A stretch of 40,909 nt of DNA from the NCBI GenBank assembly GCA_017467335.1, contig JAFTSJ010000035.1, positions 1-40,909 of the forward strand. Reading direction: 5' to 3'. Within the stretch, counting starts at the first letter, position 1; each line of letters starts with the position of its first letter. The translations under genes were made by a program, and so were the position numbers. The stretch is from Alphaproteobacteria bacterium (lineage in GTDB: Bacteria > Pseudomonadota > Alphaproteobacteria > CAAHEQ01 > UBA3637). A model generated the notes under the pieces. That model saw only the letters and a program-made list of their open reading frames with translations. It was not told the DNA's origin and did not search any database. Shown here in pieces: positions 1 to 40,909 of this stretch.

Positions 1-1131
1 ACATTGGTCTTTGGCTTTTTCTATCCCGTCCGGTAATAAGGCAGATTTTTTATCCGAACATTTTATACACCCACCAACTGATTGATAACTATATCCATCA
101 ACGCAGGTATAAGCACAATACGTTATCGGATCATCGTTATTATCTTTTGTATCTGTTTGAACAATGAACTTACCTTCATCTTGGCATTGTTGTTCACACA
201 TGGTTTGTCCGCTAATATCGTCCTTAAAGACAACTTCTCCATCCACCATATATTCAAACGGTTCTGTGCGGACGGGAATGTTACTATATGTTGTACATGG
301 CATACACGCCCCGTTTTTGGTACGAAAATGATTTGGAGCACATTCTTCTTCGATTTGAACACATTTATTGTTGGCTTCGTCACAGACGGCACCTTTGGGA
401 CAATGGTCATTGCAAAGACATTCAACGCATTTATGTTGACTGATATCGGTTGTCATACAATATGGTGTTGACGCTGCACAATCCGGTTCGCATAAGTTAT
501 TGATACAATCATAACACCCACCGCTCTTATGTGACGGACAATCTTGTTGAGTATAACAATAAGTAGTTGGTTCTCCGTTTTTATCGAGCGGTTTACCCGT
601 TCCGCCTTGACCGTTTAAATGTTCCAATGTTGCTAAAAAACGCATGCCTGACAAATCGCCATAGGTTGAACAAATGGAAGCATTTCCCTGATAAACAATA
701 CCGTCTTCGGAATTGATATCTGTTGGTACAATGCGAATCATTTGAGCCAAAAATCCGTTGAGGTTCATATTGAGCACTTGTTGACAAACTCGATTAGGAA
801 CATTTTCCACATCAACACTGAATGTCAGATTGTTACCGCTTGATACGATGTTAATGGGAAAACCGGTTGGTGTTGTATCGGGCCATTCATCAAATGAATC
901 AGGGAGGGGTTTATCTTGATATTTATGCCATGTATCTTGAATACGTTTGTTGACTTCATTAACAATATCGTTTGCCCGATATTTATCCATGGCAAAAGAA
1001 TACCCATAAATCCCACCGGCCGATAAGACCCCAATTACCGCCAAAACGCCCAGTATTTCCACCATACTGCGACCTGTTTCAGCTGTTTTTTGTTTAAAAT
1101 ATCCGTTTAAAAAAGCGTTTAAAATATTCAT
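1..1131 (-). CDS. Cysteine-rich prepilin-like surface protein (5' part, runs off left edge)
   Basis: The minus-strand frame is open from ATG at 1131 to base 1 (377 codons, no stop), so only the N-terminal part is present. Residues 16-25 hold a type IV prepilin-type processing site: TG then RSMVE, with Gly20 at -1 and Glu25 at +5, followed by a hydrophobic segment (ILGVLAVIGVLSAGGIYGY). A pilin-like region follows with paired cysteines (NRVCQQV near 110, ASIC near 150), then dense CxxC and CxxxxxC clusters from about 190, including a DCP/CDxxNNKC pattern. It is homologous to the genes at 19381-22101 and 38410-40909. A GAGGG ribosome site precedes the ATG. Inferred role: an exported, disulfide-rich pilus- or surface-associated protein processed by a prepilin peptidase. 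The function of the cysteine-rich body is unknown. Confidence 0.85.
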   Translation of the reverse strand, partial: MNILNAFLNGYFKQKTAETGRSMVEILGVLAVIGVLSAGGIYGYSFAMDKYRANDIVNEVNKRIQDTWHKYQDKPLPDSFDEWPDTTPTGFPINIVSSGNNLTFSVDVENVPNRVCQQVLNMNLNGFLAQMIRIVPTDINSEDGIVYQGNASICSTYGDLSGMRFLATLEHLNGQGGTGKPLDKNGEPTTYCYTQQDCPSHKSGGCYDCINNLCEPDCAASTPYCMTTDISQHKCVECLCNDHCPKGAVCDEANNKCVQIEEECAPNHFRTKNGACMPCTTYSNIPVRTEPFEYMVDGEVVFKDDISGQTMCEQQCQDEGKFIVQTDTKDNNDDPITYCAYTCVDGYSYQSVGGCIKCSDKKSALLPDGIEKAKDQC

Positions 1132-1176: not shown

Positions 1177-1346
1177 AAAAATGTGTCAAAAAAACGTCCC
1201 TTTTTTGAACGCTTTTTTTTGGCAAGGGTTACACTTTTTTAAAAACAAAAAAATCACGAAAAATCAAATAATTACAAATTTTAGTTGACAACGAAATAAA
1301 TCTAAAATATTATGTCAAAAAAAGGGACGTTTTTTTGACACATTTT
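1177..1346. repeat. Nested palindromic repeat element, copy 1
   Basis: Arms at 1177-1210 and 1314-1346 are near-perfect inverted repeats of about 33 bases around a roughly 103-base AT-rich core. Each arm is itself hairpin-like. The right arm (1313-1340) is a perfect 11-bp stem, TGTCAAAAAAA, around a GGGACG loop. The other arm is the same with one mismatch region. The element is repeated in opposite orientation at 19165-19335 upstream of a paralogous gene. It could be a regulatory region conserved by duplication, a MITE-like element or a recombination site. No transposase or clear target duplication is seen. Confidence 0.75.
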
Positions 1347-10709: not shown

Positions 10710-11423
10710 TTAAAAATAGGTTCTTTCATGTTGATAAGACCGTTGAACTTTTTTCGGAACAACCAACGGAACACCGTTAATATCATGTTCATCAATAACT
10801 TTTTGCGGAATGTCAACTTGCTTATCCGGCAACGACAATTCTTTGCGACCCCGACTTTTGGACCGTCTTAAATCCGGTATTTGCATATCAAACGTTACAT
10901 TGGCATTTTCCTGTCGATGTCCCGTTACCCGTTCCCCATCCGTAATAATCAATGTGGGCAATGATGCGTCATATGAACGAACAAAGGCTCCGCTGGATTC
11001 ATTTAGACATAACTGAAAAGCTAAACCTTTCTTTTCCGGATAAGCAGCTTCCCAGAAAATAACGTTAAACCGAGCCATACCACCCAGTGACGTATCTTCA
11101 CCCCCAAGTTCACGCATTTTCATTTTAACCTGTCCGTCTTTATCCCGTCCTTGAACAACAAATTCAAATCGCTTGTTCGGACCGAATCGACTGACAAAAT
11201 CAATTTTAAATTTACCTGTCGGTGTTTTAACGTCTTCAAAATCACGCCAATCTGATACGGCTTCCGTTGCGTCTTTTGATACTTCCACAACATCCGTTAC
11301 AATATTGCCGGTCGATTTTCCACAACTTTTTAAACCGGACATAACCGTTCCGGCGCCAACTAAACCGGCCATGACAAATAAGGTTGTCAAACAACCTCGA
11401 CCGGCTACATTTAAACAACTCAT
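10710..11423 (-). CDS. Uncharacterised envelope protein
   Basis: 237 residues with a hydrophobic N-terminal segment (CLTTLFVMAGLVGAGTVMSG, about 11-30) that could be a signal anchor or signal peptide. A soluble region follows with beta-rich stretches (FKIDFVSRFGPNKRFEFVVQG, about 72-92) and a basic, proline-containing tail. No known family is recognised. A strong ribosome site (AAAGGAGG) precedes ATG 11423. A promoter (TTGCAA, 17 bases, TATAAT) overlaps the end of gyrB, so the gene can be expressed apart from the dnaN-recF-gyrB cluster that it follows. Confidence 0.7.
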   Translation of the reverse strand: MSCLNVAGRGCLTTLFVMAGLVGAGTVMSGLKSCGKSTGNIVTDVVEVSKDATEAVSDWRDFEDVKTPTGKFKIDFVSRFGPNKRFEFVVQGRDKDGQVKMKMRELGGEDTSLGGMARFNVIFWEAAYPEKKGLAFQLCLNESSGAFVRSYDASLPTLIITDGERVTGHRQENANVTFDMQIPDLRRSKSRGRKELSLPDKQVDIPQKVIDEHDINGVPLVVPKKVQRSYQHERTYF

Positions 11424-11452
11424 GTATCCTCCTTTAAAATACAGCCGGTTTT

Positions 11453-15047
<3,595 letters not shown>

Positions 15048-15061
15048 CAATGCTCCGTTTT

Positions 15062-16177
15062 CTATACACGCATTGGCATTAAAACATATAACGCATTGTC
15101 ATCGGCTTCGTCTTGCAAGATAACAGGAGAAGCACTGTCTTGCAAATACATCTGAACCGTTTCGCTTTTAACTTGTCCCAAAATATCCAACAAGTACCGA
15201 TAATTAAACCCGATTTCAACCGATTCACCATCATAAACGGCATCCATTTCATCTTCGGCCGAACCTTCATCAACCGAAGCAGCAAAAACTTGTAACAATC
15301 CGTTGCTTAAAGACAATTTAATGCCTCGAGATTTTTCAGAAACAACTGAAACACGTTCAATAACATCTGTTAATGTTTCGGCATGAGCTTGTAATTTTTT
15401 GTCATTGTTAATCGGAATAACTTTTTCATAATCCGGATACGTTCCGTCAATTAACCGAGATGACAATACAACATCTCCCATTGAAAAACGAATCTGATTT
15501 GCAGATAAAGAAACTTGAACGGCATCTTCTGTTTCTCCGGCTAATTTTGCCAATTCGTTAATTGTTTTACGAGGAATAATAACCCCCGGCATGCCTTCAG
15601 CTCCTTGCGGTAACGAAATACCGGCACAAGCCAACCGATGTCCGTCCGTTGCAACAGCCGTTAATTTTGATTCGGCTCCTTTTTTTTCGTGCATATAGAT
15701 ACCGTTTAAATTATAACGGGTTTCTTCCATCGAAACAGCAAATCCCGTTTTAGCAATTAAATCGACCATATCTTTGGCGTTGACAGAAAAAGAAAACGGC
15801 GTTTCTTCCATCATCATAGACGGGAATCCATCTGCCGGCAATGTCGATAATGCAAATTTTGAACGACCTGAAACCAATGAAACTTGCCCTGTTTCTTCGA
15901 CATAAGCCATCTGTAATTGAGACCCTTCCGGTAATTTTTTGACAATATCATACAACTTATGTGCCGGAATGGTAACGGCCCCTTGTGTTTCTACACCGGC
16001 CGGTAATTTTTCAACAATTTCAATTTCATTATCCGTAGCACGCAAAGAAACAATATCCCCTTGCGTTTCAATCAACACATTTGATAAAACAGGTATTGTT
16101 TGACGTCTTTCAACAACGCTTTGAATGTGTGAAAGTGCTTTTAGTAATAATCCCCGTTCAATTGTCAGTTTCATCAT
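15062..16177 (-). CDS. dnaN: DNA polymerase III beta sliding clamp
   Basis: 371 residues with the three-domain clamp layout: MKLTIERGLLLKALSHIQSVVERR at the start, TDNEIEIVEKLP in domain 1, ATDGHRLACA in domain 2, and the conserved end YVLMPMRV. It forms the ring that tethers DNA polymerase and recruits repair factors. First gene of the dnaN-recF-gyrB operon. dnaA, which often precedes it in bacteria, is not here; the upstream neighbour is a divergent Lon-like protease. AAAAGGAAAAAAC precedes the start; the second ATG at 16174 is an alternative. Confidence 0.96.
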   Translation of the reverse strand: MMKLTIERGLLLKALSHIQSVVERRQTIPVLSNVLIETQGDIVSLRATDNEIEIVEKLPAGVETQGAVTIPAHKLYDIVKKLPEGSQLQMAYVEETGQVSLVSGRSKFALSTLPADGFPSMMMEETPFSFSVNAKDMVDLIAKTGFAVSMEETRYNLNGIYMHEKKGAESKLTAVATDGHRLACAGISLPQGAEGMPGVIIPRKTINELAKLAGETEDAVQVSLSANQIRFSMGDVVLSSRLIDGTYPDYEKVIPINNDKKLQAHAETLTDVIERVSVVSEKSRGIKLSLSNGLLQVFAASVDEGSAEDEMDAVYDGESVEIGFNYRYLLDILGQVKSETVQMYLQDSASPVILQDEADDNALYVLMPMRV

Positions 16178-16354
16178 GTTTTTTCCTTTTCTTGTTGCGT
16201 GTGACGATATTTTTTTCTTTTCTTACTATAAAATATTTTTTCAAAAAAAGACACAAAAAAAATACCATTTCCTCATCTTTTTTTATTTATTTCGGGTAAC
16301 CCTCTTTTTTTTTAAAAAAAATAAGTGTATAACAGTCTCAAAACGGAGAAAAAA
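16178..16354. other. AT-rich divergent intergenic region (dnaN / Lon-like gene)
   Basis: It contains homopolymer A and T runs and the ribosome sites of both genes. TATAGT near 16228-16233 on the minus strand may be a dnaN -10, but no well-spaced -35 is seen. One near-match to a DnaA box (TTATACACT, minus strand, around 16325) is not enough to call an origin. Confidence 0.4.
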
Positions 16355-18742
16355 ATGAACAAATATGAATTAACACCCGAACAAATCTATACAAAAAGCC
16401 TGTTAACGGATGAAGATATTGCGTCTTTGGAAAAAAACAGCCCGATTTTAGGACAGGATACAGCATTAGAAGCGATTAACTTTGGTATTCAAATGAAAGC
16501 AAACGGTTATAATATCTTTTGCACGGGACCGAAAGGAGTCGGACGAACGGTTTTGACCATTCAAACGGTTAAAGAATATGCCTCAAAACAAAAAACACCG
16601 GATGATTGGTGTTTTGTTCATAATTTTGAAACACCTCATCAACCGATTGCCGTTAATTTTCCGGCCGGTAGCGGTAAAACATTCGTTAAAGATATCAAAA
16701 AAATGGTATCAGCTTTAAAAATCAATTTACCGGCTTTATTTAACGATGAAACATATCGGATTCAATTGGCTCACATTGACCAACAATGTCGTCAAGCCAA
16801 AGAAAAATATTTCAGTGAGCTGGAAACCATTGTTGAAACGGAAAATGTAACCTTAATGCGTATGCCGGCCGGGGTTGCCGTTGCTCCGGTTAAAAACGGA
16901 AAAGTATTAACACCGAAAACATTTAATAAACTACCCAAAGAAGAACGTAAGGATATTTTAAGTCAACTCAATGCAGCACAAGAACGGTTGGAAAACACAA
17001 TTAAAGATATGCCGAATTGGGAAGCCTCACAACAACAAATTTTGGAACAACTCCACGCAGAAATGGCGGAAAAAGTTTTAAAAACAATTATCAATCCCGT
17101 TCGTAAAACGTATGCTAAATCAAGTGTTATAACATCTTATTTAGATGCAATTAAGCAAGATATTTTGGACAATATTGCTTTTTTTGCCATTCAACCGAAC
17201 GAAAACAATATTGAATTGATTACCGAACAATTGACGGAGTTATGGGCTCGTTACACGGTTAACTTATTTGTATCCCATAAAATCAATTCCGGAGCCCCTG
17301 TTGTACATTTAAATCACCCGACTTTATCAAATTTAGTCGGTAAAATCGAACGACAACAACATTTAGGCTCTCTTATTTCTGATTTTTCCATGATTCGGGC
17401 CGGTGCCTTACATCAGGCGAACGGGGGGTATTTAATTATTGAAGCCCGTGAATTACTTGAAAATGAATATGTATGGAATGCTTTAAAACGGTCATTATTT
17501 TCCAAAGAAATCAAAATGGAATCCGGTACGGATGATAATTCTATTTCGGGCGTTGTATCTTTAATGCCGGCCGTCATTCCGTTATCTGTTAAAGTTATTT
17601 TAATCGGCGAAGCCGGTTTATATTATATGCTGATGGAACGAGATGATGAATTTGGCGAATTATTTAAGATTCAATCACGATTTGCCGAAAAAATGAATCG
17701 AACACATGATACGGAACGGATTTACGCTCAAATTTTAGTTAACTTTGCCCGTCATGAAAAATTAAAACCGTTTTCGAATGATGCCATCCGCCGGACATTG
17801 GAATATGCGGCTCGCTTATCGGGAGATTGCTATCATTTAAGTACATTTATGACGCATGTAAACGATTTAATGCGAGAATCGGCCTTTTTTGCGACACAGG
17901 CGAAATCCAAAAAAGTGGAACCATGTCATATTGAAGAAGCGTTACAAGCCAAACGTAAACGTTCCGGAGCCATGCAACAAGAAATTTTGGATATGGTTGA
18001 ACGAGGCACAATAGCCATTGAAACGTCCGGACACCGTATCGGACAATTAAATGCACTGGTTGTGCATAGTTACGGGTCATTTTCGTTTGGTCGTCCCAAC
18101 CGTGTAACATGTCAAGTTCGCATGGGTCACGGTGATTTAATTGATGTTGAACGAGAAGTTGAATTGGGAGGAGCCTTACATTCCAAAGGGGTATTGATTT
18201 TATCTTCATTTTTAGCGGCTCGTTTTTCCAAAGGAACACCCTTATCTTTGGATGCCAGTTTGGTTTTTGAACAATCCTATTCTGAACTAGACGGTGATTC
18301 AGCTTCATCAACGGAATTATACTGTTTATTGTCAGCCATTGGGGAAATTCCGTTGAATCAATCAATTGCCGTAACCGGTTCAGTTAATCAATTAGGACAA
18401 GTTCAAGCAGTCGGTGCCGTTAATGACAAAATCGAAGGGTATTTTACTGTTTGTAAAAAGCAAGGATTAACCGGTAAACAAGGGGTTATTATACCACAAA
18501 GCACAGTGCATAATCTAATGTTATCAACAGATGTTGTTCAAGCTGTTCAAGAAGGATTATTTCATATTTACGCTGTCAGCACAATAGATGAAGGGATGGA
18601 AATTTTAACCGGTAAAAAAGCCGGTAAACCAGATAAGGACGGTCAATATCCTGCTACCAGCATTAACGGTATTATCGCTCGTCGATTAGATGAATTTTTC
18701 AAAAAATCACAACAACATAATTCCAGAACAAAAAACGACTAG
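16355..18742 (+). CDS. Lon-like ATP-dependent serine protease (LonB/YcbZ type)
   Basis: 795 residues from ATG 16355 (CGGAG before it; the upstream ATG at 16325 lacks a site). It lacks the Lon substrate-binding N-domain. The N-terminal part has a P-loop variant GPKGVGRT (58-65), with Arg in place of the usual Lys, as in the AAA_32 family. A central insertion includes long helices, followed by an ATPase region with GALHQANGGYLIIEARELL and NRTHDTERIYAQIL. The C-terminal S16 protease domain has DGDSASSTE with Ser649 and NDKIEGYF with Lys692, 43 residues apart as in the Lon Ser-Lys dyad. Likely a cytosolic quality-control or regulatory protease. A terminator follows. Confidence 0.9.
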   Translation: MNKYELTPEQIYTKSLLTDEDIASLEKNSPILGQDTALEAINFGIQMKANGYNIFCTGPKGVGRTVLTIQTVKEYASKQKTPDDWCFVHNFETPHQPIAVNFPAGSGKTFVKDIKKMVSALKINLPALFNDETYRIQLAHIDQQCRQAKEKYFSELETIVETENVTLMRMPAGVAVAPVKNGKVLTPKTFNKLPKEERKDILSQLNAAQERLENTIKDMPNWEASQQQILEQLHAEMAEKVLKTIINPVRKTYAKSSVITSYLDAIKQDILDNIAFFAIQPNENNIELITEQLTELWARYTVNLFVSHKINSGAPVVHLNHPTLSNLVGKIERQQHLGSLISDFSMIRAGALHQANGGYLIIEARELLENEYVWNALKRSLFSKEIKMESGTDDNSISGVVSLMPAVIPLSVKVILIGEAGLYYMLMERDDEFGELFKIQSRFAEKMNRTHDTERIYAQILVNFARHEKLKPFSNDAIRRTLEYAARLSGDCYHLSTFMTHVNDLMRESAFFATQAKSKKVEPCHIEEALQAKRKRSGAMQQEILDMVERGTIAIETSGHRIGQLNALVVHSYGSFSFGRPNRVTCQVRMGHGDLIDVEREVELGGALHSKGVLILSSFLAARFSKGTPLSLDASLVFEQSYSELDGDSASSTELYCLLSAIGEIPLNQSIAVTGSVNQLGQVQAVGAVNDKIEGYFTVCKKQGLTGKQGVIIPQSTVHNLMLSTDVVQAVQEGLFHIYAVSTIDEGMEILTGKKAGKPDKDGQYPATSINGIIARRLDEFFKKSQQHNSRTKND

Positions 18743-18764
18743 CACCGATTTTGATAAAACATAG

Positions 18765-18802
18765 AACGGTTTACCAACTTAAAAAAGGTAAACCGTTTTT
18801 TA
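18765..18802 (+). terminator. Rho-independent terminator of the Lon-like gene
   Basis: 11-bp perfect stem AACGGTTTACC (18765-18775) with its complement at 18787-18797, followed by a T run. Confidence 0.88.
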
Positions 18803-18980
18803 TAAACTTAATTTTTTTAAGAAGATATCCTGCAATTAAAACCATATCATCATAAAAATTATACCTTATACGAAATATAAAAAAGAAAGCTTAACCTGAT
18901 AAAATACAGATATCCTCCAACGAATCATTAAAAAGACTTGATTGAGTCAAAAAACAGTTCCCAAATGTCCCTTCTTATCA

Positions 18981-18999
18981 TGCTGAACTTGTTTCAGCA
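18981..18999. repeat. REP-like palindrome (TGCTGAA...TTCAGCA)
   Basis: TGCTGAACTTGTTTCAGCA with CTCAT following. The imperfect palindrome closely resembles short dispersed palindromes known from alphaproteobacterial and other bacterial genomes. Only one copy is seen in this window. Confidence 0.45.
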
Positions 19000-19164
19000 T
19001 CTCATCGAATTATGGTAGCAAACAACACAAGATTCTGATAAATTCATAAAAACGAATCGGCAACAATGTTCTTAAAATCCCCTAAAAAACACATCAAAAA
19101 AACCGTTTGAAATTTTTCTAAACGGTCAAAATAAAAATATAACAAAATCAATACATTAACTCGA

Positions 19165-19335
19165 AAAAATGTGTCAAAAAAACGTCCCTTTTTTTGACAT
19201 AATATTTTAGATTTATTCAGTTGTCAACTAAAATTTATAATTATTTGATTTTTCATGATTTTTTTGTTTTTAAAAAAGTGTAACTTTACCCCAAAAAAAG
19301 CGTTCAAAAAAGGGACGTTTTTTTGACACATTTTT
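19165..19335. repeat. Nested palindromic repeat element, copy 2
   Basis: Arms at 19165-19198 and 19302-19335 match in inverted orientation over about 30 bases, around an AT-rich core of about 103 bases. The left arm contains a perfect 11-bp hairpin (19172-19182 with 19189-19199, loop CGTCCC). The core includes AGTTGTCAACT, a small palindrome also partly kept in copy 1. The whole element is the inverted counterpart of 1177-1346. It ends 45 bases before the ATG of the cysteine-rich gene, so it may control that gene. Confidence 0.75.
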
Positions 19336-19380
19336 GAAAAATAACCGTCTGATTTTATTCACTTTTAAAATGGGGGCTCT

Positions 19381-22101
19381 ATGGAAATTTTAAACGCTTT
19401 TTTAAACGGATATTTTAAACAAAAAAATGCTGAAACAGGTCGCAGTATGGTGGAAATCTTGGGCGTTTTGGCAGTTATTGGTGTTCTTTCAATCGGCGGG
19501 ATTTATGGTTACACCTTTGCGATGGACAAATATCGGGCAAACGATATTATCTATGAAGTCAATCTGCGTGGGCAAGATATTTGGCATAAATATCAAGAAA
19601 CACAACTGCCTGAAACGATAGATGAATGGGCCGATACAACACAAACAGGTTATCCGATTGGTATTGAAACAGCCCCTGATGATAATTTATTTCAAATCAA
19701 TGTTGATAATGTTTCTCCCCGTGTTTGTAAATTTGTGTTAACCGGACAATACAAATCTGTTTATGCTATGGTTGTTGATGGAGAAAATGGTACCATTTTT
19801 AACGGCGATGTTGGTATTTGTGGTTCGGATGATTCTGCGAATAAAACAATGTTATTTTCGTTTGATATATTAGGTGATTTTGATTCGGGGCATGGGTTAT
19901 GTATTACCGATACCGATTGTGGTGAAGGTTGTTTTTATTGTGGAACTAATCATTTGTGTCAAACAACCTGTTCCGGTTCTAAAAGTGTTTGCAGTTCTTC
20001 TAAAAAAGCTTGTGTGGAATGTGAAACAAGCGATCAATGTCCTACAGGTAAGGTTTGTAATGATATAGATAATACATGTGAAAAAGTTGATATAGAAGCT
20101 TGTGAAGCGGGGTATTTTCGTTCTAAAAACGGTATTTGTGTTGAATGCAGTTATGCCGGTAATATTATCATTGATCGGGATGAAAAATTTGGTAAAGATG
20201 AAGTGACCGGATTGCAATCATGTCAAGCTTGTGCTGAAAGTCAGCAACAGCGTATTATTGAAAGTAATACCGAAAATACATATTGTTCTAAAACATGCAC
20301 GATGGGGATTTCTTATCAATCTAAATCTGATGGTTGTATTTCGTGTCAAGAAGAAGTAGCTTATGCTATCAATGAAAATGATAAAGAATCTGTTGACCAG
20401 TGTAATGCGTGTGGTAACTATGTTTGGAAAGATATTACTACCTGGGCATGTTCCAAAGTATTTAATTGTGAAGAAGGGACTTTTATGGGTAAAAATTGGA
20501 GTGGTGGTACACTTAAAACATGTGCTTCTTGTTCAGTAAATATTAGACATTTTTTGCCATCACGTAATCCGGCCCTTCTTGAAGAAGCAGCAAAAATATG
20601 CAATAATTGTCCGACAACAGCTCCACGCCGAGTGGAAGATGGTCGATGTTTACCACGTTGTATTCAACCGGATGAAGATGAATCGATTTTGGTTTGTCAA
20701 GCCAATCCGGAAGACGTCAATTGTAAGCGCCAGTGGCAAGATAAAATTAAAAGCGATGCCATGTTGTCATTTGGTGTTTGTCGTCCTTGTTCGTCCACAG
20801 AAAGCGGATATGTTGGTACCGATGAAACAAGCATTTATTATCAAATGTGTATCAATTGTGGACGAAAAGTGAATAGTGACGGTTATTGCTATTTAGATAA
20901 AAATTGTGATGTTGGTCAATTTAAAGGTTTAGATGGGGCTTGTTATGGATGTGATGAGACGAAGCCGGTTGAAATCGAAAGTGAAGAAAAATCAGGCTGC
21001 ACCACCAATTGTATGAAAGATTCAAATGGAAAATTTGGAACAGGTGGGGCAATCAAAGGACGTTATAGTGATGATAAATATTGCTATAAAGACTGTGGAG
21101 AAGGAAATTTTAATGGTAGATATGGTTGTCTTTCATGTAATACCGTTGGTGATTATTATAATGCCCATTCACTTATCAATCCTAACAGCGATAAATTAAG
21201 ACAAAGTTGTACATCTTGTCCATCACCGTATGAAAGGCAAGTTGTTTCCGGTGATAATGCACCGATTATTGGTTCAGCACCTAATGGTTTAATTTATTGT
21301 GCTTTGAAAAATTGTCAGAATGGTTTCCATGTATCACAAGGGAAGTGTGTATCTTGTTCAGCAAGTGGATGTGGTGGTTTAGGATGTACGTCAGCGATTG
21401 AATCGGAATGTGAGGCTTGCAAAAATCGAGTTATGATAAATGGTAGATGTGTTTTGTTTAAACCTCAAACATCAGCTGTTTGTAATAATATTGGCAATAC
21501 AATTCCAACTTATCTATACAGTGATTTAAAAGATGACGCAACAAGTTATATCGCAACGTATGAGCAAAATATTAAAAATCAGAATTTTGAAGATAAAATG
21601 TTTCGAGATCAAGACGGTATTTGTTATCGATGCGATATAACAAAGGAAATATCTGTTGGTGATAATGAGGCAGGAAAGGAACAATGTAAACATTGTGGGA
21701 ACAGACGGTTTAGCAAAGGACAGTGTTTATATGGATTATGTAGTGAAGCCAATACCTTTTTACGAGCTGATACAGGTGAATGTATCGGATGTGGTATGGG
21801 TGGTAAAAAAGTTGAAATTTTAACATCCGCTGCTTCACAAAATCTTTGTTCTTCATGTACGGGATATCGTGCTATTACAACGGGTAATGTAACCTTGGGT
21901 AATTTAAAAGCTTATTGTATTGAATCGTGTACGGATTTAGAATTTGCTGATATTCACGCTAATTGTTATAATGAAAATGCGACACAAGATAATATTGAAA
22001 TCGGTTCAGATGAAAAATCAATTGCTGATTGTAATAAAATGAACAATCGAACAGCCGTTGTTAATGAAGAAACGGGACAGGTTGTTTGTCGATTGTTGTA
22101 A
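19381..22101 (+). CDS. Giant cysteine-rich prepilin-like surface protein (complete)
   Basis: 906 residues. The N-terminus has a prepilin-type site, TG/RSMVE, with Gly20 at -1 and Glu25 at +5, then a hydrophobic helix (26-45). The pilin-like region to about 150 has a cysteine pair (PRVCKF near 116, VGIC near 148). From about 175 to the end it is built of irregular modules rich in CxxC, with spacing like C-x2-C-(x10-25)-C-x2-C and recurring G-x-C-x2-C; I count about 76 cysteines in total. A DQCPTGKVCNDIDNTC segment resembles Dickkopf-like cysteine patterns. The tail (GSDEKSIADC to ETGQVVC) is also found in the paralog at 38410. Likely exported, assembled in or displayed by a type IV pilus-like machine, and disulfide-stabilised; the exact role is unknown. 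GGGGG precedes the ATG. Confidence 0.88.
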   Translation: MEILNAFLNGYFKQKNAETGRSMVEILGVLAVIGVLSIGGIYGYTFAMDKYRANDIIYEVNLRGQDIWHKYQETQLPETIDEWADTTQTGYPIGIETAPDDNLFQINVDNVSPRVCKFVLTGQYKSVYAMVVDGENGTIFNGDVGICGSDDSANKTMLFSFDILGDFDSGHGLCITDTDCGEGCFYCGTNHLCQTTCSGSKSVCSSSKKACVECETSDQCPTGKVCNDIDNTCEKVDIEACEAGYFRSKNGICVECSYAGNIIIDRDEKFGKDEVTGLQSCQACAESQQQRIIESNTENTYCSKTCTMGISYQSKSDGCISCQEEVAYAINENDKESVDQCNACGNYVWKDITTWACSKVFNCEEGTFMGKNWSGGTLKTCASCSVNIRHFLPSRNPALLEEAAKICNNCPTTAPRRVEDGRCLPRCIQPDEDESILVCQANPEDVNCKRQWQDKIKSDAMLSFGVCRPCSSTESGYVGTDETSIYYQMCINCGRKVNSDGYCYLDKNCDVGQFKGLDGACYGCDETKPVEIESEEKSGCTTNCMKDSNGKFGTGGAIKGRYSDDKYCYKDCGEGNFNGRYGCLSCNTVGDYYNAHSLINPNSDKLRQSCTSCPSPYERQVVSGDNAPIIGSAPNGLIYCALKNCQNGFHVSQGKCVSCSASGCGGLGCTSAIESECEACKNRVMINGRCVLFKPQTSAVCNNIGNTIPTYLYSDLKDDATSYIATYEQNIKNQNFEDKMFRDQDGICYRCDITKEISVGDNEAGKEQCKHCGNRRFSKGQCLYGLCSEANTFLRADTGECIGCGMGGKKVEILTSAASQNLCSSCTGYRAITTGNVTLGNLKAYCIESCTDLEFADIHANCYNENATQDNIEIGSDEKSIADCNKMNNRTAVVNEETGQVVCRLL

Positions 22102-22125
22102 TTTTGTATGCAACATAGTTATAAA

Positions 22126-22155
22126 AAATGCCCTGCAACAATACAGGGCATTTTA
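22126..22155. terminator. Bidirectional terminator after the cysteine-rich gene
   Basis: 11-bp perfect stem AAAATGCCCTG (22126-22136) with its complement at 22145-22155, eight-base loop. It also ends the convergent small gene. Confidence 0.88.
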
Positions 22156-22169
22156 CATATGTCATAAAA

Positions 22170-22367
22170 TTAAGAATGATTTTTCATTTTATCTTCATCC
22201 ATTGCTTTGGGGTCAAAAGACGGACCGCCATATTTACCGCCATATCCTTCGCTGGGTGTTTCTTTGTCAATATTTGAAAATTTTATTTTAGCTTCAACAG
22301 CAGTTGCCATCAAACAAACACCTGATAAAACAAGACCCAATACGAAAAAGTTTAATATACGTTTCAT
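22170..22367 (-). CDS. Small secreted protein
   Basis: 65 residues with a clear signal peptide (MKRILNFFVLGLVLSGVCLMATAVEA) and a mature part of about 39 residues rich in Gly, Tyr, Lys and Asp (GYGGKYGGPSFDP). AAGGAGGGATATC precedes the ATG, a strong ribosome site that supports a real gene despite its size. No family recognised. Probably periplasmic. Confidence 0.65.
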   Translation of the reverse strand: MKRILNFFVLGLVLSGVCLMATAVEAKIKFSNIDKETPSEGYGGKYGGPSFDPKAMDEDKMKNHS

Positions 22368-22502
22368 GATATCCCTCCTTGATAAACGATTAACTTTTTA
22401 AGTGTAGCATATTTTTTTTGAAAGGACAACTCTAAATATAAATGTATTTTTATGACATAGACAAGCTGTATCATCGATTCACAGACTTCTTAAAATAAAA
22501 AG

Positions 22503-22531
22503 TTGTCTATTGTTTAAAAATAGAGTATAAT
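22503..22531 (+). promoter_or_regulatory. Sigma70 promoter of the EF-hand gene
   Basis: TTGTCT (22503-22508), 17-base spacer, TATAAT (22526-22531); predicted transcript start near 22538, just before AAGGAG. Confidence 0.65.
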
Positions 22532-22554
22532 GGGACTTGATAAGGAGAATAATA

Positions 22555-23196
22555 ATGGATTCAGACAAACACCCAACAAATGATATGCCCGATTCCCCTG
22601 CTGAACAGGAAAAACGTTCTCTGCTCGAACGGTTATGGAATGCTATATCTTTGGTTTTGAGTTTTATTCCCGGTGTCTCATTTTTCCTTAAACGAGGGGA
22701 AAATGTTGTAAAAGGAGCTTATGAGGTTGCTACCGGCGATGTGTCTCGGGGAATGGCTGTTATAGGTGGTATGGGTCGTGAATATGATATTCTGCATGAT
22801 GAATATATGGGTACACGTGAAAAATCTGTTCGAATATCATCAACCGTTATGGATGATGTCGGTAAAGATTTAGCTGGTTTGGCAGGAGGAAAACTGGCCG
22901 AAGCGGCTGTTGTTACCGGCGTCCATTATACCACGCGAGCTGCTATTCGGGTTGCTCAAAAATCAGATGAAGATGCCGGTCGAAAGCAATTAGAAGAAAT
23001 AACCGGTCCGTTAACGGAGCAGGAATGGCAAAAAAAACGTCAATCGTTAGACACAAATGACGACAATCGGGTAGATCAAGTGGAATTTGCTCGTGGTTTT
23101 AAAACACTACGTGAAAATGCTCAATGTTTTTCTTTTGATGAAAATCAAGACAGAGCCACCCAATTACTGATTAACCGAAACAGTCAGAATGCTTAA
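22555..23196 (+). CDS. EF-hand-motif protein of unknown function
   Basis: 213 residues from ATG 22555, which has AAGGAG eight bases upstream; a TTG at 22537 is rejected because it lies in the leader. The N-terminal part has a hydrophobic stretch (AISLVLSFIPGVSFFL) and a glycine-rich middle (VIGGMGREYD, LAGLAGGKLAEAAVV) that may associate with membrane. Near residues 170-182 a canonical calcium-binding EF-hand loop is visible: DTNDDNRVDQVEF, with acidic or Asn residues at positions 1, 3, 5, 9 and Glu at 12. A second partial loop (DENQD) follows. No signal peptide is apparent. The rest matches no family I recognise. It is convergent with ctrA, 25 bases away. Confidence 0.7.
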   Translation: MDSDKHPTNDMPDSPAEQEKRSLLERLWNAISLVLSFIPGVSFFLKRGENVVKGAYEVATGDVSRGMAVIGGMGREYDILHDEYMGTREKSVRISSTVMDDVGKDLAGLAGGKLAEAAVVTGVHYTTRAAIRVAQKSDEDAGRKQLEEITGPLTEQEWQKKRQSLDTNDDNRVDQVEFARGFKTLRENAQCFSFDENQDRATQLLINRNSQNA

Positions 23197-38409: not shown

Positions 38410-40909
38410 TTATTGCTGACAATACACCCGTCCTGTTTCATCATCTTTACTGGGCGAACGGGAAGCATTTCGGCATAATTGAGCCGATAATTCATCCGTA
38501 CCGATTTCATTATTGCCAACATCTATTTCACTTCCCCAACAATCGCCGTTAATATCTTGCCATTCACCCGAATCACATATTGAAACACAATATTTGGCAT
38601 CATTAACCGTGGACATAACACGCCGATTGCAATCATTACACAATTGTTCGGCTTCGCTTTTATCAGGTATGGCAACAGCACCTGTTACATCGCAGGACGG
38701 ACATCCTGTTGTGGACATAAATGTATTGTTTTGTATACAACCACCATACATACATTTACCATCTATCAATGTACGTAAACCACCACAACTGGCACATTCT
38801 TCGGCTGTTGATGAAAAACCGTTTTGTGTATCAGTACAAGAACGACAAATACCGGTTACATCTCGATATTTGCTACCAACCGGCAAATTCGGATATTTCG
38901 TTGTATCAGGACTATCGCTATTACAAACACCGGATTGTCCGGGATTATAATAAACACAATATTTATTGATATACATATGATTAGGGCATTTTTCACACTC
39001 CGTTTTGTAATTATTAACCAAAACGGAACCGGATTTTAAACAAGCTTGACAATTCCCATAGGCATTTCTTAATTTTCCGGTAGAACATGTTCTGGGGACA
39101 CAGTGAATATTATCTGCATATAAATGGTACATATATTTAGGTTGATTGTTTTCATCCTTACATCTGTTATTACAATCATCCGTATCGTGCTGTGTGTGAA
39201 TATTCCATGAATTATATATTAATAATATACCATCACCAATAACGGAGCATGATTGGCATGTTCCTTGAACATGAAGTTCATTATCTACGCAATTTTTATA
39301 ACAATAACCATCATAGTATTTTCGTGTTGTCGGACAGGCATTTTCACAATCTTCCTTTGAATCAACCTTAACATAACCGGATGTTGTACACGAATAGCAC
39401 TGCATATCTTGTCCCAAGAATTGATTTCCGGTTGTTTCGGTTTTTTCATGTTCACATTGTCTATCCGCCGGTAAAATACAATAACCGTCCTTATATATGC
39501 GACCGCATTTTTCCGATGTACACAATCCTTTTAAATAGACTAATTTTGCTCCATTTCCGCCAGTACCAGTCAAAGAATAACTATATGGATCCGTACAATC
39601 GAGGCAGCTGCCGTCAGGAGTCTGAAATTGATTATCTTCGCATTTTTTAACACAGAAATAATCCCCATTTAGCTCTACAACATGTCGTTTAGAACGTAAT
39701 TTTTCATCAGTTGATGTTGCACAAGCTTCACATAAACGAGACCATTCTTCAATAATTTCTCTGGATGATGTATAAGCATTTGCCCAAAAATAACCACCGT
39801 GGAAATCTGTTGCTGTTGTCCAGTCATTGATATTCGATTTATCGCATTTAACACATCGAGCATCACGAACTTTATACCAGCCGTTCGGACATGTTTGACG
39901 TGCACAGTGCCAACCTCTGTAATCACCTCCAACAGATATTCTATTCGGACATGCATCACATAAAAGGCGAGCTTTATCATCATCAGGAATTCCTTGGTCA
40001 CTGTCCGCAGAACATTTAACACATGTCCCCCCTCTATTCAAAAAACTGTTCCCTTTAACACAACTGGTTGCACAGTAGGTTTTAATATTATCATCACGAC
40101 CGGCTTCTTCAATCCGGTGTTGAATCGAAGCACACGCTTGACACATTTCTATTCCGCTATGTGTATCTTTAATAGATACACCACCAACTTGTTTTTCAAA
40201 AATACCGTCATTATCATCCGAGTTCATGATGATGATTTCGCTCATATAATCACAAGGGACACATGTTCCATTTGCTGCCCGATATTCTTTTCCGAATCTA
40301 CCTCCTTCACCGCACGTTTTAGGAATATCCACGCATTTGTGATTCGTTAAATCGCAAATTTGTTCATTCGGACAATCTTTATTCGTTAAACATTCAACAC
40401 AAACACCGCCTTTATCATCATCAAAGCAAAACGGATTAGTCGTTCCCGTACAACGGTTATGACACGTCATATCGTTTTCACACGTAACAGGAGCACACAA
40501 ATTGCCACAATCTTCATCATCAACACATGGGTCACCGCTTTGTCCTGTTCCTGCTTCATTATTTTCCGAATCTAAAAATGATGTGAAAACGATTAAGTTA
40601 TCTGTTTCATCTTCTCCACAAATGGACGCATTACCGGTATATTTGACTAAATCTCCCTCTCCTTGGGCAACTTGCACAAATTTTATCCCTTTAACAACAC
40701 CGTTTAAGTTCATATTAACCACATTTTTACACACACGGGAAGACACACCTTCAACATAGGTTTTAAACGCAACGTCCGGATGAGATGTCATATAAATCGG
40801 GTATCCTGTGCCTGTCATATCCGGAAATTCGTCAAAATCCGTGCCGTCTTCACTGGGTTCAGGCAGGGGTTGTTCTTGATATTTATGCCAAACATCATTG
40901 GCTCGGAGG
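38410..40909 (-). CDS. Giant cysteine-rich prepilin-like surface protein (3' part, N-terminus beyond right edge)
   Basis: The minus-strand frame is open from the window edge to TAA at 38410, giving 833 visible codons; the true start lies upstream of 40909. The first visible residues (LRANDVWHKYQEQPLPEP) align with residue ~62 onward of the 19381 gene, just after the prepilin helix. A pilin-like stretch with SSRVCKNVVNMNLNG and NASICGE closely matches the protein at 1-1131. The body is again CxxC-rich, including ECLTNKDCPNEQICDL. The C-terminal IGTDELSAQLC and DDETGRVYC match the tail of the 19381 paralog. Same inferred role. An ATG at 40818 is internal, not a start. Confidence 0.87.
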   Translation of the reverse strand, partial: LRANDVWHKYQEQPLPEPSEDGTDFDEFPDMTGTGYPIYMTSHPDVAFKTYVEGVSSRVCKNVVNMNLNGVVKGIKFVQVAQGEGDLVKYTGNASICGEDETDNLIVFTSFLDSENNEAGTGQSGDPCVDDEDCGNLCAPVTCENDMTCHNRCTGTTNPFCFDDDKGGVCVECLTNKDCPNEQICDLTNHKCVDIPKTCGEGGRFGKEYRAANGTCVPCDYMSEIIIMNSDDNDGIFEKQVGGVSIKDTHSGIEMCQACASIQHRIEEAGRDDNIKTYCATSCVKGNSFLNRGGTCVKCSADSDQGIPDDDKARLLCDACPNRISVGGDYRGWHCARQTCPNGWYKVRDARCVKCDKSNINDWTTATDFHGGYFWANAYTSSREIIEEWSRLCEACATSTDEKLRSKRHVVELNGDYFCVKKCEDNQFQTPDGSCLDCTDPYSYSLTGTGGNGAKLVYLKGLCTSEKCGRIYKDGYCILPADRQCEHEKTETTGNQFLGQDMQCYSCTTSGYVKVDSKEDCENACPTTRKYYDGYCYKNCVDNELHVQGTCQSCSVIGDGILLIYNSWNIHTQHDTDDCNNRCKDENNQPKYMYHLYADNIHCVPRTCSTGKLRNAYGNCQACLKSGSVLVNNYKTECEKCPNHMYINKYCVYYNPGQSGVCNSDSPDTTKYPNLPVGSKYRDVTGICRSCTDTQNGFSSTAEECASCGGLRTLIDGKCMYGGCIQNNTFMSTTGCPSCDVTGAVAIPDKSEAEQLCNDCNRRVMSTVNDAKYCVSICDSGEWQDINGDCWGSEIDVGNNEIGTDELSAQLCRNASRSPSKDDETGRVYCQQ

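Follow-up and report, generated by a model that had tools for sequence, protein, structure and literature searches.

The repertoire of giant type IVb pilin-like surface proteins in the alphaproteobacterium studied here is probably phase-varied by a promoter-inversion regulon of the Mpi type, as indicated by the architecture of the genes, the inverted repeats that precede them, an invariant promoter found in both orientations, and genes for invertases, pilus assembly and Dsb-type oxidation, all of which were read from genome sequence. The window, i.e. the whole stretch of 40,909 nucleotides that was analyzed, is contig C22 of a 1.32 Mb genome in 46 contigs (hereafter the window genome, G000). 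It carries three paralogous giant genes (P0001, P0004 and P0003; Table 1) with housekeeping neighbours, including alanyl-tRNA synthetase (identified with Pfam) and recA- and gyrB-like open reading frames (ORFs; recognized by eye), and the giant genes therefore look like dispersed chromosomal genes.

Table 1. Positions of the giant genes and their upstream elements in the window.
Feature	Position	Strand	Remarks
P0001, giant cysteine-rich pilin-like protein	19381..22101	+	906 aa, 76 Cys; type IVb-like pilin domain between leader and modular body
P0001 prepilin leader, 20 residues, the last being G(-1)	19381..19440	+	Homologous in all heads
P0001 pilin-like part, residues 21-165	19441..19875	+	Modelled helix and four-strand sheet; 5′ cassette near-uniform in most paralogues
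P0001 cysteine-rich body, residues 174-906	19900..22098	+	Repeating hairpin-helix units
P0001 putative invertible promoter element, pointing away from the gene	19172..19328	.	157 bp
P0001 far inverted repeat, TGTCAAAAAAACGTCCCTTTTTT	19172..19194	+	0 expected by chance
P0001 gene-proximal inverted repeat, exact complement of the far repeat	19306..19328	-	
P0001 promoter TTGACA-17-TATTAT, reading away from P0001	19199..19227	-	11/12 consensus
Terminator-like hairpin and T tract, gene-distal side of the P0001 element	19096..19126	-	Putative role
P0004 putative invertible promoter element, likewise pointing away	1184..1340	.	Promoter 1285-1313 (+)
P0004, second giant paralogue, same head	1..1131	-	3′ end outside window
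P0003, third giant paralogue	38410..40908	-	5′ head missing at contig end

P0001 is an intact ORF, the cysteines of which form 19 CxxC and 7 CxxxC motifs. Its type IV prepilin leader ends at the site MEILNAFLNGYFKQKNAETG^RSMVE (cleavage context ETG^RSMVEILGVLAVIGVL), with G at −1, E at +5 and a hydrophobic helix thereafter; no paper on the GRSMVE motif was found in the literature search. The Pfam N_methyl profile (PF07963) matched none of the heads in the window genome, against 8 of 14 controls. In an alignment of 18 sequences, C116 and C147 of the pilin-like part are invariant, and nearly all invariant columns of the body in the family alignment are cysteines, which in P0001 are spaced approximately as C-x11-C-x2-C-x(17-24)-C-x2-C-x(11-17)-C and define six-cysteine modules.

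An AlphaFold2 model of P0001 (mean pLDDT 75.6, pTM 0.55) contains a long N-terminal helix (residues 19-71) packed on a four-strand β-sheet that extends up to residue 160, i.e. a pilin fold, followed by repeated hairpin-helix units along the body. The best 14 matches of the pilin-like part in the PDB are type IVb pilins (TCP, CFA/III) at E-values of 0.01-0.5, none of them below 0.001; these matches are non-significant alone but agree with the pilus machinery described below and are suggestive of a type IVb-like domain. The body, modelled separately for residues 240-625 (pLDDT 78, pTM 0.68), gave no significant match in a Foldseek search of the PDB; what resemblance there was, to chains of disulfide modules like those in megalin and TNF receptors, was weak. 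Searches of the body identified chance-level matches in Pfam and a sub-threshold cysteine-rich repeat in NCBIfam. A single match below 0.001, from a viral structure library, was set aside (probability 0.69, rmsd 33.8).

At least 17 giant bodies were found in the stretches around head and body matches in the window genome, and P0001 is therefore not a chance ORF. These proteins comprise 800-1000 residues with about 75 cysteines and are 30-70% identical to one another; six of the genes are complete (C13, C17, C22b, C36, C44 and C45), three lack the 3′ end (C2, C22a and C28) and eight lack the 5′ end (C15, C19, C20, C21, C22c, C23, C26 and C33), among them P0003, whose reading frame is cut just past the helix by the end of the contig. 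A search with the head identified 41 places, and some contigs end within further prepilin heads. Unrelated bodies, too, can be preceded by similar 5′ ends, e.g. at C46:564 and C27:23680, and long prepilin-headed proteins of 974 and about 1800 aa with low-complexity or β-helix-like bodies are encoded at C28:47897-50821 and in stretch L120, indicating that the prepilin head fronts many unrelated bodies. For the role of major pilin, the shorter pilin-like proteins encoded on C5 are more suitable than the giant proteins. Relatives of P0001 were present in all 33 genomes of the taxonomic family to which it belongs and absent from the 24 genomes of other alphaproteobacterial families, long giant matches being found mainly in G000 and two related genomes, G001 and G008. 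A profile search of contigs returned nothing with the post-helix alignment alone, and with heads included it identified relatives in named uncultured alphaproteobacterial MAGs, several of which come from ruminant or rabbit guts.

The initial annotation, made from the letters of the window, had described a complete member of 906 residues with about 76 cysteines, a G/RSMVE prepilin site with a hydrophobic helix, a conserved cysteine pair in the pilin-like part and a third copy (38410-40909) aligning from just after the helix, and it had proposed a single architecture of pilin head, variable body and shared tail. The cysteine count, the cysteine pair and the third copy were confirmed, the G(-1) and E(+5) of the site were verified on both P0001 and P0004, and the head-plus-variable-body architecture is supported across the paralogues, whereas the tail is common within subgroups and not to all members. 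The structure model, which it had suggested as a way to look for repeating disulfide modules, shows the hairpin-helix units, and the paralogues that it thought worth counting are those listed above. In the profile searches that it suggested for head and body, the N_methyl profile was silent and the body fell into no described family; a body of already known function, which it had named as counting against its proposal, was not encountered in Pfam or the PDB. The invertible element, the invertases of the Mpi type and the common 5′ cassette had escaped it.

Two pairs of exact 23-nt inverted repeats were identified in the window, in which none would be expected by chance, and the elements that they enclose lie 52 nt from the start codons of both P0001 and P0004. 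Across the window genome, 69 copies of the 23-nt repeat were detected (0 in a reversed control), forming 23 complete elements with an interior of 114-116 nt, in all of which (23/23) the hexamers TTGACA-17-TATTAT are invariant. An element is located upstream of every readable giant start, and the genome contains many dispersed promoters between inverted repeats. Unpaired repeats are located within 115 nt of a contig end in 16 of 17 cases, as expected if repeats or mixed orientations break the assembly. Of 19 elements assignable to a single gene, 17 have a promoter that faces away from that gene and two have one that faces it, namely at C39, where a prepilin-head gene is truncated by the contig end, and at C8 (319-473), where the gene to the right encodes a cysteine-rich protein with a signal-peptide-like start and without a prepilin head. 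In most giant loci, the near-consensus promoter points away and no other near-consensus promoter is present. A terminator-like hairpin is located on the far side of the element at most loci, and, as it folds cleanly in only about half of them, its role as a terminator is putative. An Rfam search of positions 18700-22600 gave no match.

A case similar to that at C8 is found in G001 (stretch L285), and the switch may thus serve proteins beyond the pilin-headed ones. At C46:365-519, one element is located between two divergent prepilin-head genes, and its flipping would determine which of the two is selected. At C16:31242-31267 and C36:64855-64880, the repeats are variants built around a palindromic GGTACG/CGTACC core, and the GGTAC core is also present in many elements of G001; these variants possibly represent a second family of inversion sites.

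G001 and G008 carry their own version of the element, with about 108 and 34 half-element matches, respectively, and 0 or 1 in the other genomes searched; in G001, the element-to-start-codon distance is 46-55 nt. In a first set, all 21 elements with a recognized head were in one orientation, and the element of G001_C13 is inverted (score 30 in the same orientation vs. 178 inverted). In a further set of 32 elements from G001, 30 adjoin a prepilin-head gene, which lies on the usual side in 29 and on the opposite side in one, and two elements are headless. The strongest single result for inversion comes from comparison of G001_C13 with its closest relative, G008_C118: the gene and its 3′ flank are collinear (87.7% over about 3.25 kb, with divergence further downstream), and the 154-bp element aligns in reverse. 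Both orientations are thus observed across loci and between related genomes, as represented by assemblies rather than one population, and individual inverted cases could result from misassembly at repeats. For G001, a promoter consensus does not reveal which orientation corresponds to the ON state.

Four serine recombinases of the window genome matched the Mpi-family model of NCBIfam (300.9, 275.3, 272.1 and 265.2 bits), three of them above the cut-off of 272 bits and the fourth just below it. The same model matched 26 of the 33 genomes of the family (G000 included) and none of 23 genomes of other alphaproteobacterial families. No inverted repeat of the P0001-element type adjoins the invertase genes of G000. 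A PilV-type shufflon was also considered and rejected: the two tyrosine recombinases resemble XerC/XerD in size and sequence, the reversed segment is upstream of the gene, and the combination of 3′ cassettes with a tyrosine shufflase was not found.

A single operon, located on C43, has genes for a PilR-like T2SSF protein, a PilQ-like ATPase, PilP, PilO, a PilN-type secretin and TcpQ. Profile matches exceeded the cut-off for PF06864, PF10671, T2SSE and T2SSF; the secretin matched TIGR02520 at 1e-72, yet under the curated cut-off, and the PilP match was weak and below cut-off. The gene set of PilN, PilO, TcpQ, ATPase and T2SSF identifies the pilus system, on gene content, as type IVb (R64/TCP-like). 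Genes for a PilT-like ATPase, for a prepilin peptidase and for two DsbA homologues lie elsewhere in the genome, and on C29 (L062:2619-9134 and 11184-17333) ORFs of 2171 and 2049 aa flank a gene for a T2SSE/VirB11-like ATPase. The pilus, PilD and Dsb genes to which the initial annotation had pointed are therefore present, and its other ground for doubt, a genome without prepilin peptidase or pilus genes, falls away.

A block extending from about −280 to about +550 around the giant genes, the repeat-bounded element included, is shared at mostly 85-97% nucleotide identity. In a tree of the pilin domain, the sequences of G000 cluster together (4 changes vs. a shuffled mean of 12.3; 0 of 500 shuffles as low), whereas the tree of the bodies shows no such clustering (11 changes vs. 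a shuffled mean of 11.3), and several bodies pair across genomes (C22b with G001_C28a, C2 with G001_C8, and C13 with G008_C124). The contrast between the two trees indicates that the 5′ cassette is homogenized within a genome, most simply by gene conversion, while the bodies keep to orthologous lines. At C25:15474-15743, a head is fused with the tail from a C15/C36-like gene, apparently a deletion remnant, and at C18:47162-47362 a head is stopped after 66 codons; both early-ending heads are probable remnants of recombination.

The repeat-flanked segments could instead be MITEs, or a fixed regulatory repeat with a chance promoter, that never flip. Short multi-copy segments of constant size with terminal inverted repeats, mostly in one orientation relative to the gene, would fit this explanation, but the homology extends past both repeats, the spacing to the start codon is near-constant, and the segment between the repeats is exactly reversed while the adjoining gene remains collinear; together with the toward-gene copies at C39 and C8 and the Mpi-family invertases, these observations make a MITE unlikely.

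A further explanation is that a different promoter drives the genes, that their products serve as constant structural pilins or form a rigid disulfide fibre, and that the copy number reflects redundancy; it draws on the pilin fold, the pilus machinery and the one-to-one orthologues of several bodies across species. It is judged quite improbable, since one genome has 17 or more bodies that are 30-70% identical, each readable giant head has an invertible element in front of it, the sole near-consensus promoter is directed away in most loci, and the shorter C5 proteins fit a major pilin better. The invertible promoter, the invertases of the Mpi type and the common cassette likewise make a switchable adhesin or antigen likelier than a constant rigid fibre. 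That the cysteine clusters bind metal or haem, making the family part of a redox or electron-transfer machinery, is very unlikely: the 19 CxxC motifs of P0001 and a weak, non-significant cytochrome c match (E 0.35) are set against module spacing resembling that of extracellular disulfide proteins, the hairpin-helix beads of the model and the two DsbA homologues.

Under the favoured reading of a phase-varying promoter-inversion regulon, each gene module comprises, in order, a terminator-like hairpin, a repeat, the promoter segment, a second repeat, a ribosome-binding site, the leader, the pilin domain and the body. One of the Mpi-family serine invertases would flip the promoter segment, so that the gene would be silent with the promoter pointing away and transcribed with the promoter pointing toward it. 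The product would be exported and then cut by the prepilin peptidase, its body oxidized by DsbA-type enzymes, and the protein assembled and displayed via the R64/TCP-like machinery, probably as a minor-pilin adhesin with a putative ligand or as a variable antigen. As the readable giant starts lie behind a flippable promoter, each cell can probably turn individual surface proteins on and off at random, comparably to the capsule switching of Bacteroides. More tentatively, the system may support antigenic variation in a clade of gut alphaproteobacteria, in which Mpi-family invertases would select, for display, a few of tens to more than 100 pilin-headed cysteine-rich proteins while gene conversion keeps the cassette uniform and the bodies diverge; with near-exclusive expression, if true, the system would parallel, in bacteria, the coat switching of protists.

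Among the closest known systems is that of Bacteroides fragilis, in which the serine invertase Mpi acts on 13 dispersed invertible promoter regions and controls capsule loci (PMC4747536, citing Coyne 2003). The two systems share an NCBIfam invertase family, many dispersed repeat-flanked promoters and surface structures as products; they differ in the alphaproteobacterial host, in the control of pilin-headed giant proteins rather than capsule loci, in scale (23 complete elements in G000 and about 108 half-elements in G001) and in that the invertase-repeat pairing in G000 is a candidate one. The type IVb thin pilus of R64/TP114 carries a large pilin-like adhesin, PilV, the C-terminal part of which is varied by DNA inversion (PMC9045228). 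G000 resembles it in its PilN/PilO/PilQ-type machinery and in combining a large pilin-like protein, a variable C-terminal part and probable DNA inversion; however, the variation of PilV comes from a shufflon at the 3′ end of its gene, driven by a tyrosine recombinase, whereas G000 has separate whole genes, invertible promoters and serine invertases. A genome survey reported no inversion signature in its four alphaproteobacteria (PMC5903667), and the largest inverton group in a defined gut community numbers 72 (PMC11892184), fewer than the half-elements of a single repeat type in G001 (about 108). Global promoter inversion of the Mpi type is reported for Bacteroides in the papers found, and the literature search yielded no description of a promoter-inversion system for pilin-headed giant proteins; each component has a known counterpart (PMC4747536; PMC9045228), and their combination and scale were not found in the literature searched.

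The pilins of TCP (TcpA) and CFA/III (CofA), the best fold matches for the pilin-like part, have about 200 residues and few cysteines, in contrast to the giant proteins. The variant-specific surface proteins of Giardia are large CxxC-rich families in which the anchor is constant and the body varies, eukaryotic and anchored at the C-terminus; the likeness of the giant proteins to them is an analogy of constant anchor and variable CxxC-rich body, with a different mode of switching, and Pfam gave no match linking the two. Uncultured alphaproteobacteria, several named relatives of which come from herbivore guts, combine the Mpi invertase family, the machinery of a type IVb pilus and a very large family of pilin-headed proteins, and, if the switching is true, they would offer a model of surface variation in a small-genome gut bacterium.
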